Below the pieces are notes generated by a model. The model worked only from the letters and a program-made list of their open reading frames with translations. It was not told the DNA's origin and did not search any database. Position numbers and translations under genes: made by a program. Of a stretch of 10,117 bases of DNA, positions 1,192 through 7,509 are shown piece after piece. How positions within the stretch are numbered: the first letter of the stretch is position 1; every line of letters begins with the position of its first letter. This DNA comes from an uncultured Eubacterium sp. (lineage in GTDB: Bacteria; Bacillota; Clostridia; Lachnospirales; Lachnospiraceae). The DNA lies in the NCBI GenBank assembly GCA_946412445.1, contig CAMKHH010000018.1, positions 1 through 10,117 on the forward strand, given 5' to 3'.

Positions 1192-2709
1192 ATGAACAGG
1201 AGTATATTAGATTACCTGGAACAGTCCAAAGAGAAATTTCCAAATAAGACGGCATTTGCAGATGTAGATACTTCCTGTACATACAGTGAATTATGGGAGA
1301 GATCAAAAAAAATCGGATCAGAATTGTCCAGATATTTGAAGCCGGGTCAGCCGGTGCCTGTATTCATGGATAAGAGCGTGGATACGATTTGTCTGTTCCT
1401 GGGAATTGTGTATGCGGGCTGTTTTTACGTTTTACTGGATACAAAGCAGCCAAAGGCAAGGCTGCATCAGATACTCAATACTTTGGATGCGGATGTTTTA
1501 ATTACTTCCAAAGATTATGACGGAGACAGAGAGGGACTTTTATTCGATAAGCCTGTATATGATCTGCAGGAACTGGAGAAGGGGGAAATCGATGAAAAAA
1601 AGCTGGCAGAAATCCGGAATCATGCTTTAGATATCGATCCGCTGTATGGGATTTTTACTTCCGGTTCCACGGGGACGCCCAAGGGTGTGGTGGTGAGCCA
1701 CCGCAGTGTGATAGATTTCATTACATACTTTACGGATATTTTTGGAATAACATCTGAGGATGTCATCGGAAATCAGGCTCCCTGGGATTTTGATGTTTCG
1801 GTAAAGGATATTTATTCCACTTTAATGGTGGGGGCTACTATGGAAATAATACCAAAACAGTATTTTTCATTTCCTGTCAGGCTAATAGATTTTTTGTGTG
1901 AACGTAAAGTGACTACTCTGATCTGGGCCGTTTCAGCATTGTGCATCATCACCACGCTGAAAGGATTTGAATATAAGATACCGTCCCGGATTGGGAAAGT
2001 CATGTTCAGCGGAGAAGTGATGCCGGTGAAGCACTTAAATCTCTGGAGACAGGCCATACCGGATGCCATGTATGTGAATCTTTATGGTCCTACTGAAATC
2101 ACCTGTAACTGTACGTATTATATTATTGAAAGGGAATTTTTGCCCGGTGAGGTGCTGCCAATCGGCAAAGCTTTCCCGAATGAGAAGGTGTTCCTTCTGG
2201 ATGAAACGGATAACCTGGTAACAGAACCGGGAAAGCAGGGAGAAATCTGTGTATCGGGAACTACGCTGGCTCTTGGCTATTTCAATAACACGGAACAGAC
2301 AAGGCAGGCATTTGTGCAAAATCCATGCAATCCTTTTTATCCGGAGATCATCTACCGAACCGGAGATCTGGGATTGTATAACGAGACTGAGGAATTATGC
2401 TTTCTATCCAGAAAAGATTTTCAGATTAAGCATTTGGGGCACCGTATTGAACTGGGTGAAATCGAGAATGCCATGGATCAGGTGGAGCAGATTATTCGTT
2501 CCTGCTGCCTCTACGATGATAAGAGCAGTAAGATTCTGCTATATTATGAAGGGGCTGTCGATAAGAGGCAGATCCAGAAGCGATTGAGGGAGATACTGCC
2601 GGCCTATATGCTGCCGAACCGTTATTATGCAGTGGACAAGCTTCCCTTGACGAAGAACGGAAAAATTGACAGAAAGATGCTGATGGCGCTTTATAAGGGG
2701 GAAAACTGA
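1192..2709 (+). CDS. DltA-like amino-acid adenylation enzyme (aminoacyl carrier-protein ligase)
   Basis: At 505 aa this is about the size of DltA (~500 aa). It is an ANL-superfamily ligase that should activate an amino acid with ATP in the cytoplasm and load it on the phosphopantetheine of the carrier encoded at 3953. Core motifs are all present: A3 TSGSTGTPKG (156-165), the substrate-amine aspartate in WDFDVSV (D201), A5 NLYGPTE (296-302), A7 YRTGD (388-392), A8 GHRIELGE (416-423), and A10 LTKNGKIDR with catalytic K491. The ATG at 1192 is preceded by AAAAGGAG (1175-1182) at 9 bases. The pocket differs from B. subtilis/B. cereus DltA as I recall them: FSGE (272-275) replaces FCGE, and YGPTE is followed by ITCNCTYY instead of ATVAVT. 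The symbol dltA is withheld because the substrate may not be D-alanine. The adenylation role is near certain. Confidence 0.88.
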   Translation: MNRSILDYLEQSKEKFPNKTAFADVDTSCTYSELWERSKKIGSELSRYLKPGQPVPVFMDKSVDTICLFLGIVYAGCFYVLLDTKQPKARLHQILNTLDADVLITSKDYDGDREGLLFDKPVYDLQELEKGEIDEKKLAEIRNHALDIDPLYGIFTSGSTGTPKGVVVSHRSVIDFITYFTDIFGITSEDVIGNQAPWDFDVSVKDIYSTLMVGATMEIIPKQYFSFPVRLIDFLCERKVTTLIWAVSALCIITTLKGFEYKIPSRIGKVMFSGEVMPVKHLNLWRQAIPDAMYVNLYGPTEITCNCTYYIIEREFLPGEVLPIGKAFPNEKVFLLDETDNLVTEPGKQGEICVSGTTLALGYFNNTEQTRQAFVQNPCNPFYPEIIYRTGDLGLYNETEELCFLSRKDFQIKHLGHRIELGEIENAMDQVEQIIRSCCLYDDKSSKILLYYEGAVDKRQIQKRLREILPAYMLPNRYYAVDKLPLTKNGKIDRKMLMALYKGEN

Positions 2710-2711
2710 TT

Positions 2712-3911
2712 ATGGATATGAATGTTTATCAGGAAGTCGTTGAAAAGTTTGGTACTCCCTGTTATATCTTTGATCTGGATCGGTTCCGGGACAGACTGAA
2801 GGAGGTACAAGAGATACTTGGAAACAGAGCACAGATCTGCTATGCCATGAAGGCGAATCCATTTCTGGTAAAGGAAGCTTCCGAATGGGTGGATCACCTG
2901 GAGGTCTGTTCCCCCGGAGAATTTGCAATCTGTGAACGGGCAGGAGTCCCTGTGAAGCAAGTAGTATTATCCGGTGTCAATAAAGAAGAGAAGGATATCC
3001 GGTATATAGTAAAACATTATGGAGAACAGGTCACATACACAGTAGAATCGCTGCTGCAGCTGGATAATTTACAAAAAGCTGGGAAGGACTTTCAAAGGAA
3101 GCTTCCTGTTCTCTTAAGAGTGACAAGCGGAAACCAATTTGGCTTAAGTGAAGAACTTGTGAGAAGTATCATCGGGAAACGAAGCAGTTATCCGGCACTG
3201 AATTTTATCGGGTTACAGTATTTTTCAGGAACACAGAAAAAGAGGATAGGGGTACTGGAAGAAGAGCTTATGTACATGGAACGTCTGCTATGTGACCTGG
3301 AGAAGTATGGATATGAAGCGGAAGTGCTGGAATTTGGCCCGGGACTTTATGTTGAGTATTTTCCTGGGGATACCAGGACAGACGAATTTAAACTGTTAAA
3401 GGAATTTGCTGCTTTATTGCCGAAAGTACATTTTAAAAAAAAGATAAATCTGGAATTGGGAAGATATCTGGCTGCTTCCTGTGGTATATATCTGACCAGC
3501 ATTGTGGACCAGAAGATAAATAATGGGAAGGGATTTTGTATCGTCGATGGTGGTATCCATCAGGTGAATTACTTTGGACAGACTATGGCAATGAAGATAC
3601 CTGCATACCGCCAATTAAAGAAATGTGTGTTTCAGCCGGTTACTGAAAAAGATACCGCCTGGAATATTTGTGGTTCCCTGTGTACGATCAATGACATAAT
3701 TGTAAAGAAACTTCCGCTACATGATGCGTCGGTTGGAGATACCCTGGTATTTGAAAATGCCGGTGCATATTCTGTTACCGAAGGAATGGCTTTATTTTTA
3801 AGCAGGGACCTTCCAAAAGTTTTATATTATGATGAGGCAAAAGGGCTTAGACTGGTCAGAGACCGTATAGAGACGAATTTTTTGAATTATGATTCCAGGG
3901 TTAAAAACTGA
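2712..3911 (+). CDS. Fold-III PLP-dependent decarboxylase (LysA/ornithine decarboxylase family), likely acting with the adjacent ligase and carrier
   Basis: This 399-aa protein has the alanine-racemase-like barrel and the C-terminal beta domain of DAP/ornithine/arginine decarboxylases. PLP would bind K47 in YAMKAN. CSPGE (66-70) matches the conserved SxGE region, FGPGL (208-212) sits at the glycine-rich phosphate loop, ELGR (248-251) at the usual EPGR, and GSLCTIND (321-328) supplies the cross-dimer cysteine C324 and D328. ENAGAYS (348-354) is the family's GAY motif. The usual CES of diaminopimelate decarboxylase is CTI, and the HxHxGSQ loop reads QYFSGTQ (169-175). It therefore looks unlike a biosynthetic LysA and closer to carrier-associated decarboxylases such as BtrK. 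It starts two bases after the ligase stop with AGGGGG as ribosome binding site, so the two are co-translated. Alternatives are a free amino-acid decarboxylase or a racemase-like enzyme. Fold is certain, substrate unknown. Confidence 0.85.
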   Translation: MDMNVYQEVVEKFGTPCYIFDLDRFRDRLKEVQEILGNRAQICYAMKANPFLVKEASEWVDHLEVCSPGEFAICERAGVPVKQVVLSGVNKEEKDIRYIVKHYGEQVTYTVESLLQLDNLQKAGKDFQRKLPVLLRVTSGNQFGLSEELVRSIIGKRSSYPALNFIGLQYFSGTQKKRIGVLEEELMYMERLLCDLEKYGYEAEVLEFGPGLYVEYFPGDTRTDEFKLLKEFAALLPKVHFKKKINLELGRYLAASCGIYLTSIVDQKINNGKGFCIVDGGIHQVNYFGQTMAMKIPAYRQLKKCVFQPVTEKDTAWNICGSLCTINDIIVKKLPLHDASVGDTLVFENAGAYSVTEGMALFLSRDLPKVLYYDEAKGLRLVRDRIETNFLNYDSRVKN

Positions 3912-3952
3912 TAACTATCTATATGTATAAGGAATGAGAGGAGAAAATTATT

Positions 3953-4180
3953 ATGGAAAAATTACTTGAGATTTTAGAAGATATAGTACCGGATGTGGAC
4001 TTTGAAGGCTGTGAAACATTAATCGATGATGGACTTTTGGACTCTTTTGCAATATTGACGATTGTAGGAGAGCTGGAGGATGAATTTGGTGTATCCGTGA
4101 CACCTGCTGAGATTGTTCCGGAAAATTTCAATTCCGCAAAATCACTCTGGTCCATGGTTTTGCGCCTGAAGGAGGACTAA
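3953..4180 (+). CDS. DltC-like acyl/aminoacyl carrier protein
   Basis: This is a 75-aa acidic four-helix carrier, close to the size of DltC (about 78 aa). The phosphopantetheine attachment serine is S31 in DDGLLDSF (25-32), the characteristic DS motif at the start of helix II. It is followed by AILTIVGELEDEFG, typical of helix II and loop. The protein would carry an aminoacyl thioester from the ligase at 1192 to the MBOAT at 4190, possibly with processing by the decarboxylase at 2712 on the way. ATG at 3953 has AGGAG (3939-3943) nine bases upstream. The 41-base gap from the decarboxylase shows no promoter or terminator. The symbol dltC is not assigned because the cargo is uncertain. Confidence 0.88.
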   Translation: MEKLLEILEDIVPDVDFEGCETLIDDGLLDSFAILTIVGELEDEFGVSVTPAEIVPENFNSAKSLWSMVLRLKED

Positions 4181-4189
4181 AGAGAGTGT

Positions 4190-5698
4190 ATGGCACTTAC
4201 ATCTGTGAAATTCCTCTTGTTTTTACTGGTATCTGTTGTCGGGTATTACCTGATTCCTAAGAAATTCCAGTGGATATGGCTCCTTCTTTTTAGTTACATA
4301 TATTACATGGCATCCGGTGTGAAACTGGTAGTATTTCTGCTGTTTACTACAGCGACGACCTATGGTGCAGCCTGTCTGATTGATAAGAAGAGGGAAAATA
4401 AAAAGACAGCGAAGAGAATTCTGATTCTGGGATTATTCCTTAATTTCGGAATGCTGGGAATATTGAAGTATACAAACCTGGTAATAACAAGCGTCAATCA
4501 CATTTCAGGAATAGAGCTTCCATTTGTAAAGTTCCTCCTGCCCATTGGGATATCCTTTTATACATTTCAATCTATGGGATACCTGATGGATGTCTACTGG
4601 GGGCGGTTTCATGCGGAGAAAAACCCGTTTCGTTTCGCCTTGTTTGTTTCTTTTTTCCCTCAGATCATGCAGGGTCCGATTGGACGTTATAGCCGCATGG
4701 GCAGTCAGCTTTATGAAGGCCATAGTTTTGACTGGAACAGGATAGAGCAGGCCTGTCAGCTGATGCTATGGGGATTTTTCAAGAAAATGGTTCTGGCAGA
4801 CAATGCAGCACTCTTTGTGAATGTGATATTTGATGATTATCAAACATATCAGGGTCTTTCAATGGCTGGTGTACTGCTGTATTCAGTCCAGCTCTATGGG
4901 GATTTTTCCGGGGGTATGGATGTGGTCATGGGTGTGGCAAACCTATTTGGAATTCAGATGGACGAAAATTTTAAGCGTCCTTATTTTGCGCGTTCAATTA
5001 CAGATTTCTGGCACAGGTGGCATATCACCCTTGGCACATGGATGAAGGACTATGTGTTTTATCCATTTTCTCTGTCCAGAGTTATGGGAAGGTTTGGACG
5101 GTATGCGAAGAAAAAATTCGGAAAGCAGCTGGGCAGAACACTGCCTATCTGTATTGCTAATATCGTAGTATTCCTGCTGGTGGGAATCTGGCATGGCGCG
5201 GCCTGGAAATTTATTGCATATGGACTCTATAATGGTCTGATTATAGGCATGAGCGGGTTGCTGGCCAGACAATTCAGAAGCTGGAAAAAGAAGCTGCATA
5301 TTGATGACAAGGCACCCTGGTTTGTGCTGTTTCAGATACTCAGGACGTTTCTTCTTGTAAACATCAGCTGGTTTTTTGACCGCGCAGATACGGTGGGGCA
5401 GGCTCTTACCATGTTTAAGAATGCCCTGACAAGAACAGACTGGTCTATGTTGACCAGAATTCAAACCACTGCGGGTGGAAATACTTACACGAAACTGATT
5501 CTGGCCATACTGTTATTTGGCTGTATGGTTTTATTTGTTGTCAGCATTCTTCAGGAACGGGGGATACAGATTAGGGAGTCATTGTCCCAAAGGCCTTTGA
5601 TTCTTAGGATGGCAGTCTACCTGGCGTTGTTGTTTTCTTTAAGTGTCATGGGTCAGATGCCGTTGGCGTCAGGAGGTTTTATCTATGCACAATTTTAG
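4190..5698 (+). CDS. MBOAT-family O-acyltransferase (AlgI/DltB type)
   Basis: This 502-aa polytopic membrane protein should move the acyl group from the cytoplasmic carrier to an acceptor at or across the membrane. It begins with hydrophobic segments (about 5-22 and 28-57). It has the AlgI-like block LPIGISFYTFQ (117-127), FFPQIMQGPIGRY (155-167), the conserved WHRWHITL (274-281), and the invariant active-site histidine H335 in GIWHGA (332-337). Canonical DltB is near 400 aa; the length and the LPIGISFYTFQ block fit the longer AlgI/PatA-like branch. The last residues are FIYAQF (497-502), with Y499 near the C-terminus (see findings). ATG at 4190 follows AAGGAGG (4169-4175) at a slightly long 14 bases; no better in-frame start exists. 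The next gene overlaps its end by 14 bases. Enzyme class is firm, acyl cargo and acceptor unknown. Confidence 0.92.
   Translation: MALTSVKFLLFLLVSVVGYYLIPKKFQWIWLLLFSYIYYMASGVKLVVFLLFTTATTYGAACLIDKKRENKKTAKRILILGLFLNFGMLGILKYTNLVITSVNHISGIELPFVKFLLPIGISFYTFQSMGYLMDVYWGRFHAEKNPFRFALFVSFFPQIMQGPIGRYSRMGSQLYEGHSFDWNRIEQACQLMLWGFFKKMVLADNAALFVNVIFDDYQTYQGLSMAGVLLYSVQLYGDFSGGMDVVMGVANLFGIQMDENFKRPYFARSITDFWHRWHITLGTWMKDYVFYPFSLSRVMGRFGRYAKKKFGKQLGRTLPICIANIVVFLLVGIWHGAAWKFIAYGLYNGLIIGMSGLLARQFRSWKKKLHIDDKAPWFVLFQILRTFLLVNISWFFDRADTVGQALTMFKNALTRTDWSMLTRIQTTAGGNTYTKLILAILLFGCMVLFVVSILQERGIQIRESLSQRPLILRMAVYLALLFSLSVMGQMPLASGGFIYAQF
5671..5676 (+). promoter_or_regulatory. Ribosome binding site that fixes the start of the SGNH gene inside the MBOAT gene
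   Basis: AGGAGG lies 8 bases before ATG 5685, within the last codons of the MBOAT gene. An earlier in-frame ATG at 5643 has no such site and would add an Arg/Trp-rich stretch ahead of the membrane anchor, so 5685 is preferred. Confidence 0.8.
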
Positions 5699-6656
5699 AC
5701 GGATCGTGAAAGCCGGCATTTTTTTGCTATTGGTGATTTTGATTAATGGGGGTTTAGACTATGCACTGTATCCCTATACCTATTCCAGAGCCGAGATGCA
5801 CCAGATGGAGAAAAGAGAAGTGAATCAGCTGATTGTTGGCACCTCGCATGGAAAGTGTGGAATTGATCCGGCAATCATGGATGAGATTCTGGGAACAAAG
5901 ACCTTTAACTCCTGCCAAGGGGGGGAGTATCCAATCGATTCTTACTATCTTATAAAAGAGGCCAGCAGAGTACACGATATAAAGCGTGTAATCTATGAGC
6001 TGGATCCCGGCTATTGGGTGACAGGTGACGGACAGAATGCACAATATATTTCTTATATTAGAGAATTTCCCATATCGGGATTGAAATTTAACTACTGGAA
6101 GGATAAGCTTCTGGACGGGGATTTCCGGTCAACCTTCTTTCCCTGGTATTTTTATCGTAACCAGGTAAAGAATGTGGGAGAAATCATAAACCGAAAGCGA
6201 TCAGATGAATACAAAAATTATTCTTTTGCTCCTTTCGACAGTGCGGCACAGACCTGCAGAAAGGATGGCTTTATAAAGCGAAACCGTGTGGAGACAGAGA
6301 AGGCACCTGTGGATCCGCTTAATCTCTGGCAGGATGATAATCTGGATCCGAGAAATGTGGAATGGTTTGAAAAGTTGTATGACTACTGTAAAGAGCAGAA
6401 GATTCAACTCACAGTAGTGGTAACACCTGTACCGGAAGAAACCTGTGCTCTCTATCCCGAAAACTATAAGATGGCATATGAATATTTGAACAGGTATCTG
6501 AGGGATAAAGACTTACTCTACCTCAATTATAATTTGAAGGAGGATGAAGGATACAGCCGCAGCATTCTTGATTTTGCAGATCAGGAGGGGCATATGTATG
6601 GAGATGCTGCGGAAACATTCTCCAGATGCCTCGCCAGGGACTTGCTGTGTAAATAA
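5685..6656 (+). CDS. DltD-like membrane-anchored SGNH-type acyltransferase/esterase
   Basis: From ATG 5685 this is 323 aa. Basic residues then a single hydrophobic segment (about 7-27, including GIFLLLVILI) make a signal anchor, so the catalytic domain should face outside. LIVGTSHGKCGIDP (49-62) is the SGNH/GDSL nucleophile block with S54, comparable to the GSS motif region of DltD. The C-terminal DFADQEGH (296-303) supplies a candidate Asp (D299) and His (H303), followed by the usual Gly/Phe-containing helix. The spacing between this Asp and His is one residue longer than the common DxxH. It overlaps the MBOAT gene by 14 bases, so the two are probably translationally coupled. By analogy with DltB-DltD or AlgI-AlgJ/X, it would receive the acyl group from the MBOAT and pass it to an extracellular polymer. 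It is shorter than typical DltD (around 400 aa) and only distantly similar by eye, so the symbol is withheld. Confidence 0.8.
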   Translation: MHNFRRIVKAGIFLLLVILINGGLDYALYPYTYSRAEMHQMEKREVNQLIVGTSHGKCGIDPAIMDEILGTKTFNSCQGGEYPIDSYYLIKEASRVHDIKRVIYELDPGYWVTGDGQNAQYISYIREFPISGLKFNYWKDKLLDGDFRSTFFPWYFYRNQVKNVGEIINRKRSDEYKNYSFAPFDSAAQTCRKDGFIKRNRVETEKAPVDPLNLWQDDNLDPRNVEWFEKLYDYCKEQKIQLTVVVTPVPEETCALYPENYKMAYEYLNRYLRDKDLLYLNYNLKEDEGYSRSILDFADQEGHMYGDAAETFSRCLARDLLCK

Positions 6657-6658
6657 TG

Positions 6659-6687
6659 TTGCAGTCCGGCTATAAATATAGTATTAT
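6659..6687 (+). promoter_or_regulatory. Possible promoter of the metallophosphoesterase gene, with start site at or next to its ATG
   Basis: TTGCAG (6659-6664), a 17-bp spacer and TATTAT (6682-6687) make a plausible sigma-A promoter: three of six matches at -35 and five of six at -10. The expected start of transcription, 6 to 8 bases downstream, falls at the ATG at 6694, which implies a leaderless mRNA. The region is AT-rich, so a chance -10 is possible. Confidence 0.35.
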
Positions 6688-6693
6688 ATCGTT

Positions 6694-7509
6694 ATGAGAA
6701 AAAAGTTTGTGACTACAACATACCAATTGACAAAACGTTTACCGACCGAACCTCAGGCTGCCTGCCTGCGGTTCGTTTTTGTGAGCGATTTGCACAATGT
6801 GTCTATAGGAAATAAAAATCAGGAGCTTATTCGTGCCATAGAACTGCAAAATCCGGATGTTGTTCTAATTGGGGGCGATACTTTGGTGGGCAAACCGGAT
6901 TATCCCATGGATGTTGCAATAGATTTTGTAAAGAATGTGGCCGGCAGATATCCTGTATATTATGCCAACGGGAATCACGAGTACCGGCTTCGCATCTATC
7001 CGGATATATATGGGGATATGTATGATCGATTTTCAGAGGCGATAAAGGAAGCCGGCGTTCATTACCTGATCAATCAGACAGCCAGGATTAATGTTCGGGG
7101 AATCCCCGTGGCTATACACGGATTTGAAGCAGACAAAAAATACTATCAACGTTATAGCAAAGCAGATATGCCTGTCTTTGAACTGAACCAGATATTCGGA
7201 CAGCCGGATCCGAATGATTATCATATATTATTGGCACATAATCCGGAGTACAGAGAGACATATTTAAACTGGGGCGCAGATTTGACCCTATCGGGGCACT
7301 GCCATGGCGGCGTGATACGCTTTGGAGAGCATTATGGATTAATCAGTCCCAATTTTAATTTGATCTATAAGTACTGCCATGGGAGATTTGACAACTCTTA
7401 CGGAAGAACAATGATAGTCAGTGCCGGGCTTGGAGAGCATACGATACCACTTAGACTTTTCAATCCGAGGGAACTGGTAGCACTTGAAATTCAATTTATT
7501 GGGAAATGA
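6694..7509 (+). CDS. Calcineurin-like metallophosphoesterase (YkuE/YaeI type)
   Basis: This 271-aa two-metal phosphoesterase shows all family motifs in order: SDLH (D32, H34), GGD (D62), GNHE (93-96), the isolated histidine in LAHNPE (H182), and GHCHGG (201-206) with H202 and H204. The YkuE/YaeI branch often has an N-terminal membrane segment or export signal ahead of this domain. Here the protein starts directly with MRKKFVTTTYQL and has none, so it is probably cytoplasmic. No Shine-Dalgarno sequence is visible before ATG 6694, in contrast with every neighbouring gene. The 37-base gap from the SGNH gene holds no terminator, so it may also receive read-through from the dlt-like operon. The substrate is unknown; members act on phosphomonoesters or phosphodiesters, including envelope lipids. 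A role in the upstream system is only suggested by position. Confidence 0.9.
   Translation: MRKKFVTTTYQLTKRLPTEPQAACLRFVFVSDLHNVSIGNKNQELIRAIELQNPDVVLIGGDTLVGKPDYPMDVAIDFVKNVAGRYPVYYANGNHEYRLRIYPDIYGDMYDRFSEAIKEAGVHYLINQTARINVRGIPVAIHGFEADKKYYQRYSKADMPVFELNQIFGQPDPNDYHILLAHNPEYRETYLNWGADLTLSGHCHGGVIRFGEHYGLISPNFNLIYKYCHGRFDNSYGRTMIVSAGLGEHTIPLRLFNPRELVALEIQFIGK

Follow-up and report, generated by a model that had tools for sequence, protein, structure and literature searches.

A carrier-fed MBOAT-SGNH operon with an embedded PLP decarboxylase that probably attaches a small amine to the clostridial cell surface

The operon and its surroundings

The window, as we call the whole analysed stretch of 10,117 nucleotides, is contig C18 of G000, a draft genome of 1.85 Mb that is 59% complete. 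Open reading frames, family profiles, and PDB and Foldseek matches confirm the five genes of an earlier note on this DNA in place, order, and orientation, all on the + strand:

1192..2709, + strand: ligase, an NRPS-type adenylation enzyme, 505 aa (TIGR01733; pocket alignment)
2712..3911, + strand: fold-III PLP decarboxylase, 399 aa (PF02784/PF00278; K47, E248, R251, C324, Y353)
3953..4180, + strand: carrier protein, 75 aa (PF00550; phosphopantetheine site S31 in GLLDSF)
4190..5698, + strand: MBOAT, 502 aa (PF03062; H278, H335; C-terminal FIYAQF)
5678..5695, + strand: codons of the putative FIYAQF acyl shuttle at the MBOAT C-terminus, overlapping the SGNH start codon
5685..6656, + strand: SGNH protein, 323 aa (N-terminal membrane helix; S54 in GTSHG, D299, H303; predicted DltD-like fold)

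The first three gaps measure 2 bp (ligase to decarboxylase), 41 bp (decarboxylase to carrier), and 9 bp (carrier to MBOAT), and the SGNH start codon (ATG, 5685) falls inside the 3' end of the MBOAT gene, preceded by AGGAGG. This spacing is compatible with one transcript, but for the single promoter that had been claimed only a weak upstream site was found (986-1015, 9/12 matches), and promoter-like matches exceed the shuffled mean over the entire window. A D-Ala-D-Ala carboxypeptidase gene (3-965) lies on the 5' side; genes for a metallophosphoesterase, ScpA, ScpB, and a Zn-dependent phospholipase C family protein follow on the 3' side. The SGNH and metallophosphoesterase genes are 37 bp apart (6656-6694), no terminator-like site was found between them, and the metallophosphoesterase gene might belong to the transcript as its sixth.

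Within the MBOAT codons for GGFIYAQF (5672-5698) lie both the ribosome-binding site and the ATG of the SGNH gene. An identical 14-base overlap occurs in 27 of the 57 genes for MBOATs with a terminal Phe, and in 26 of the 29 that encode FIYAQF; the three exceptions are L014 and L032, where no SGNH gene follows, and, in L008, the second MBOAT.

Conservation and distribution of the gene set

A decarboxylase search of genome_contigs gave at least 553 confirmed relatives, and gene neighbourhoods were taken from the best 80 of these. Clustering of the neighbours placed a ligase of the same family in 79 of these 80 loci (it is missing in L026) and a carrier in 74, company that the carrier-acting decarboxylases BtrK and VinO also have; in the six carrier-less loci, the sequence stops within 0.72 kb of the decarboxylase. 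The MBOAT is present in 57, the SGNH protein in 55, and the complete five-family set in 54 of the best 80 of at least 553 loci. Co-occurrence of the five genes is thus conserved and exceeds chance. Because these loci were selected by their decarboxylase, the frequency of operons without one cannot be read from the set. According to their sequence records, the best 80 loci belong to Lachnospiraceae, Erysipelotrichaceae, Oscillospiraceae, and other Clostridia. Among genomes drawn at the family level, the decarboxylase was found at E<=1e-60 in 35 of 150 (26 of the 125 of good quality); at the phylum level and E<=1e-90, it was found in only 3 of 299, one of these being the window's own.

Among the 23 loci without an MBOAT (best 80 of at least 553), eight lie within glycan clusters and many others are short or one-sided; in at least L024, L025, L038, and L063, no MBOAT lies within the roughly 10 kb present on each side. 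The glycan-cluster trios (L043, L057, L058, L061, L062, L071, L072, and L077) all include a UDP-GlcNAc 2-epimerase family member, and most include hexapeptide-repeat and DegT-aminotransferase families. Given these eight, the aminoacyl-carrier may also feed other acyltransferases. The same trios count against the explanation that we prefer below, and they speak for a main acceptor that is a sugar nucleotide or other small molecule, with the MBOAT and SGNH protein working on the precursor of a glycan and not on a wall polymer. We consider that improbable: an MBOAT is present in 57 of the best 80 loci, and MBOAT/SGNH pairs with this C-terminal motif act on extracytoplasmic polymers in the systems described in the accessible part of PMC12148441.

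Where the MBOAT ends in [LP][IM]YA[GN]F (e.g., L021, L036, and L044), genes for a histidine kinase (18 loci) and a response regulator (17 loci) often lie directly upstream; these identities come from scanning a single member per family.

The ligase pocket

The ligase scores 323 bits against the amino acid adenylation model TIGR01733 (cut-off 317.4). Its predicted pocket consists of D201, V202, K205, W245, M271, S273, L297, C305, N306, and K491, which we take to correspond to GrsA positions 235, 236, 239, 278, 299, 301, 322, 330, 331, and 517. The pattern DVKW[LMI]S[LVI]CNK is shared by all 75 decarboxylase-adjacent ligases aligned (the window and 74 loci from the best 80 of at least 553), and the alignment bears out the view that this pocket is distinct from that of DltA: the window reads DVKWMSLCNK vs. 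DLMSLCTVAK in 5/5 canonical DltA. In the surfactin Glu module, we presume, Lys239 is the position at which replacement by Gln turns a preference for Glu into one for Gln. Lys239 as a carboxylate binder leans on this analogy, which counts against our preferred explanation. The Glu-to-Gln switch itself is confirmed in a review, the accessible part of which does not give the residue (PMC7960918).

At E<=1e-120, a match to the ligase profile was present in 63 of the 150 genomes. In a wider survey of stretches fetched around ligase-profile matches and around decarboxylases, 76 ligases scored above 400 bits; an MBOAT lies within 3.5 kb of 57, of which 25 have and 32 lack an adjacent decarboxylase. 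By pocket, 38 of the 76 read D[VI]KW.S.CN, 18 read DAKW, and 12 are without Asp235. A decarboxylase adjoins 30 of the 38 D[VI]KW.S.CN ligases vs. 3 of the 38 others (Fisher 2e-10, computed on related sequences with kinship ignored). In a ligase tree, the window falls into a clade of 30, 28 of which have the decarboxylase; both exceptions look technical, L153 being a ligase split in two beside a decarboxylase and L163 a contig end. Six D[VI]KW.S.CN operons (L091-L095 and L100) truly have no neighbouring decarboxylase; of their genomes, G079, G081, and G082 have one elsewhere, and G002, G057, and G147 have none at E<=1e-60. The earlier note's worry that the decarboxylase is only sporadically present is thus allayed for the window's clade, where it is nearly constant, but not for these six operons, whose shared pocket counts against our preferred explanation.

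The DAKW ligases also carry Lys239, and because an asp_race-family racemase adjoins 10 of the 18, the Lys239 ligases as a group appear to take an acidic substrate, which accords with our preferred explanation. The four racemases scanned reach 191-215 bits on asp_race (cut-off 93); that they also clear the cut-off for cysteate racemase CuyB (201-209 vs. 190) counts against that explanation. None of 33 decarboxylase-adjacent ligases has an adjacent racemase, the single match, at L075, being weak and distant. Such sister operons, with a racemase and without a decarboxylase, together with the six operons above, would suit a system in which the acidic amino acid is loaded via its alpha-carboxyl and transferred unchanged, the decarboxylase having another role or making a competing product. 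The pairing in the window's clade (28 of 30, with a ligase in two pieces and the end of a contig as the remainder) argues against this, and we judge unchanged transfer to be rather unlikely. A second association with a decarboxylase, in a different gene order, is seen for the IARW ligases (L150 and L161), and the lack of Asp235 in these operons again counts against our explanation.

Several other arrangements were seen in the survey. Two of the six decarboxylase-less same-pocket operons contain a formyltransferase (PF00551; L093:2-850 and L094:5422-6303). The pocket SM[LTS]WLALDIK, without Asp235, occurs in L099, L106, L109, L116, L119, and L123; these ligases may use acids that have no amino group. 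Beside a DAKW ligase, L110:6713-10057 is a 1114-aa ORF with a decarboxylase domain first, followed by Rib, Ig-like, and transglutaminase domains.

The decarboxylase

The best PDB matches of the decarboxylase are BtrK (2j66; 9e-29) and 7ru7, and its closest named relative is that of Novisyntrophococcus fermenticellae (92% identity). K47, E248, R251, C324, and Y353 are invariant among 30 aligned decarboxylases; K47, E248, and C324 align with BtrK, and the motif LCT is the same in both. Gln169 replaces the PLP-stacking His of BtrK, and this counts against our preferred explanation. The placement of the enzyme nearest to carrier-acting BtrK agrees with the earlier note, and the enzyme is separate from LysA.

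It is hardly credible that the enzyme is instead the lysine-pathway diaminopimelate decarboxylase and came into the operon by chance. The lysA model does match it with 169 bits, but the cut-off is 297.9, and in 9/9 near-complete genomes carrying the operon decarboxylase another gene matches better (272-318 vs. 120-177 bits); in this comparison, 1 of 10 genomes clears the curated cut-off, and the window's genome gives only a partial second match. Lysine synthesis is predicted to be served by a gene other than the operon decarboxylase. It is also very doubtful that the PLP enzyme is a racemase supplying a variant of Dlt with a D-amino acid: several database records are named "alanine racemase" and the N-terminus matches PF01168, though that match is common to the whole fold, while the C-terminal PF00278 is a decarboxylase domain, Glu248 and Cys324 are as in BtrK, and the pocket is unlike that of DltA at 6/10 positions.

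TIGR03099, from the exosortase-A-associated trio, is the top NCBIfam match of the decarboxylase, below cut-off. That trio has the same three enzyme classes, but the window scores far under both of its cut-offs (TIGR03098, 187 vs. 592.35 bits; TIGR03099, 179 vs. 478.45) and it was rejected as an identity; we know of no MBOAT or SGNH partner for it.

Closer parallels are BtrI/BtrJ/BtrK, VinL/VinN/VinO, and the FlvN system, in which a stand-alone carrier is loaded with an amino acid and the carrier-bound residue is the substrate of a PLP decarboxylase from the same fold family; these supply antibiotics (butirosin for the first, macrolactams for the others), whereas the window operon would supply a membrane acyltransferase. 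BtrJ is, to our knowledge, not an NRPS-type ligase. The majority of fold-III decarboxylases use free substrates, and this favours an arrangement in which the free amino acid is decarboxylated first and the ligase receives beta-alanine or GABA already formed, later transfer being unchanged. In the accessible parts of the sources, both routes have precedents: VinN attaches the residue to VinL by its side-chain carboxyl and VinO decarboxylates it there (PMC11284099), BtrK acts on BtrI in the same carrier-bound manner (PMC7857480), and in the IdnL3 case free beta-glutamate is decarboxylated ahead of loading (PMC11284099). The free-substrate route seems unlikely to us, since a loaded molecule lacking a second carboxylate would make the invariant pocket Lys239 difficult to account for, and the closest solved relative of the decarboxylase, BtrK, is itself carrier-acting.

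The MBOAT and the SGNH protein

In a sequence search, DltB gave the only PDB matches of the MBOAT, and H278 and H335, which align with DltB, are invariant in 28 relatives. A structural model predicts two additional C-terminal helices (427-456 and 470-487), terminating in FIYAQF. Tyr at -4 and a terminal Phe are present in 57 of 58 MBOATs and the exact FxYxxF in 35 of 58 (relatives from the best 80 of at least 553). The SGNH protein has no match in Pfam, NCBIfam, or PDB by sequence; its AlphaFold2 model (pLDDT 92.6, pTM 0.90) has DltD as the first Foldseek match, suggesting a DltD-like fold. S54 is invariant among 26 relatives, and D299 and H303 are conserved in at least 90%. The parts of a complete MBOAT/SGNH shuttle (FIYAQF, H278/H335, and S54-D299-H303) thus appear to be present and conserved.

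The C-terminal Tyr motif is a proven acyl shuttle in PatA (PMC12148441, accessible part). PatA/PatB and other O-acetylation pairs resemble the window system in the Tyr hexapeptide fused to the MBOAT, the two extra helices, and the separate SGNH protein. They differ in their acyl supply: in the accessible part of that 2025 source, fused-motif MBOAT-SGNH systems of the PatA/PatB type are fed by acyl-CoA without a carrier (PMC12148441), whereas the acyl group of the window system would come from the ligase and carrier.

Relation to D-alanylation

The operon shares with Dlt (DltX-A-B-C-D) the ligase, carrier, MBOAT, and SGNH protein, a DltD-like fold, and the FxYxxF shuttle motif; it differs in adding a decarboxylase, in its ligase pocket, and in fusing the putative shuttle to the MBOAT rather than carrying it on DltX. 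Its proteins fall under every NCBIfam Dlt cut-off. Canonical DltA, DltB, and DltC were rejected as identities (TIGR01734, 301 vs. 559.85 bits; TIGR04091, 173.5 vs. 375; NF003464, 30 vs. 68), as were a DltA-type D-Ala pocket, a separate DltX microprotein (in the window's ORF list the motif sits on the MBOAT C-terminus), and the DltD family PF04914 for the SGNH protein, which has no Pfam match and is predicted to be DltD-like in fold alone. The window system may be described as a hybrid, carrier-fed as in Dlt and with a fused shuttle as in PatA.

Contig C281 of the same genome carries dltC, DltD (PF04914, E 1.9e-94), a 53-aa DltX with C-terminal FIYEQF, and the end of dltB. DltD matches strongly (E<1e-50) in 8 of the 150 genomes and at 0.001 in 13. 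Both systems are found in 3 of these Lachnospiraceae-level genomes, the decarboxylase only in 32, DltD only in 5, and neither in 110 (Fisher p 0.39). The five-gene system neither replaces dlt nor is tied to it, and in the window's genome it runs alongside D-alanylation. The earlier note's "alternative to D-alanylation", if meant as a replacement, is thus not supported. Nor is added positive charge a distinguishing trait, as had been suggested: a beta-alanyl or GABA group bears one positive charge, just as D-Ala does, and differs in reaching further out.

Discussion

We propose, with a probability of roughly 0.58, that this carrier-fed MBOAT-SGNH system links a small omega-amino acyl group by an ester bond to a molecule of the cell envelope; the amino acid, the acceptor, and each chemical step are predictions. 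The ligase would adenylate an acidic amino acid (most likely Asp and, failing that, Glu) and load it onto the carrier via the side-chain carboxyl, because alpha-decarboxylation on the carrier, if it occurs, means that the residue must hang by that group. The decarboxylase would then strip the alpha-carboxyl on the carrier, like BtrK and VinO, to give beta-alanyl-carrier (or GABA-carrier). The acyl group would cross the membrane via the MBOAT to the Tyr of its own FIYAQF, from which the SGNH Ser would accept it and esterify a hydroxyl of a surface polymer. This chain, from ligase through carrier, decarboxylase, MBOAT Tyr, and SGNH Ser to polymer, is the simplest account. We favour beta-alanyl as the loaded and decarboxylated product, giving it about an even chance; GABA is a more tentative candidate. 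In plain terms, many gut Clostridia have a five-gene device, sometimes beside the alanine-adding machinery, that probably attaches a small amine to a surface molecule.

With slightly better than even odds, Dlt belongs to a large, diversified clostridial family in which the acyl group that a carrier-fed MBOAT-SGNH pair places on the surface is set by a swappable ligase pocket and a likewise swappable tailoring enzyme (a decarboxylase, a racemase of the aspartate family, a formyltransferase, or no such enzyme), the window representing the beta-alanyl/GABA branch. Surface charge in gut Clostridia is mostly discussed via D-alanine. In the 150 drawn genomes, strong DltD was found in 8, the decarboxylase in 35, and a wider-family ligase in 63. 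If this reading is true, the MBOAT-SGNH shuttle model, which in the accessible part of the 2025 paper covers acyl-CoA systems only (PMC12148441), would gain carrier-fed, motif-fused members, the ligase-pocket code would be readable across genomes, and a whole class of surface esters would have been overlooked.
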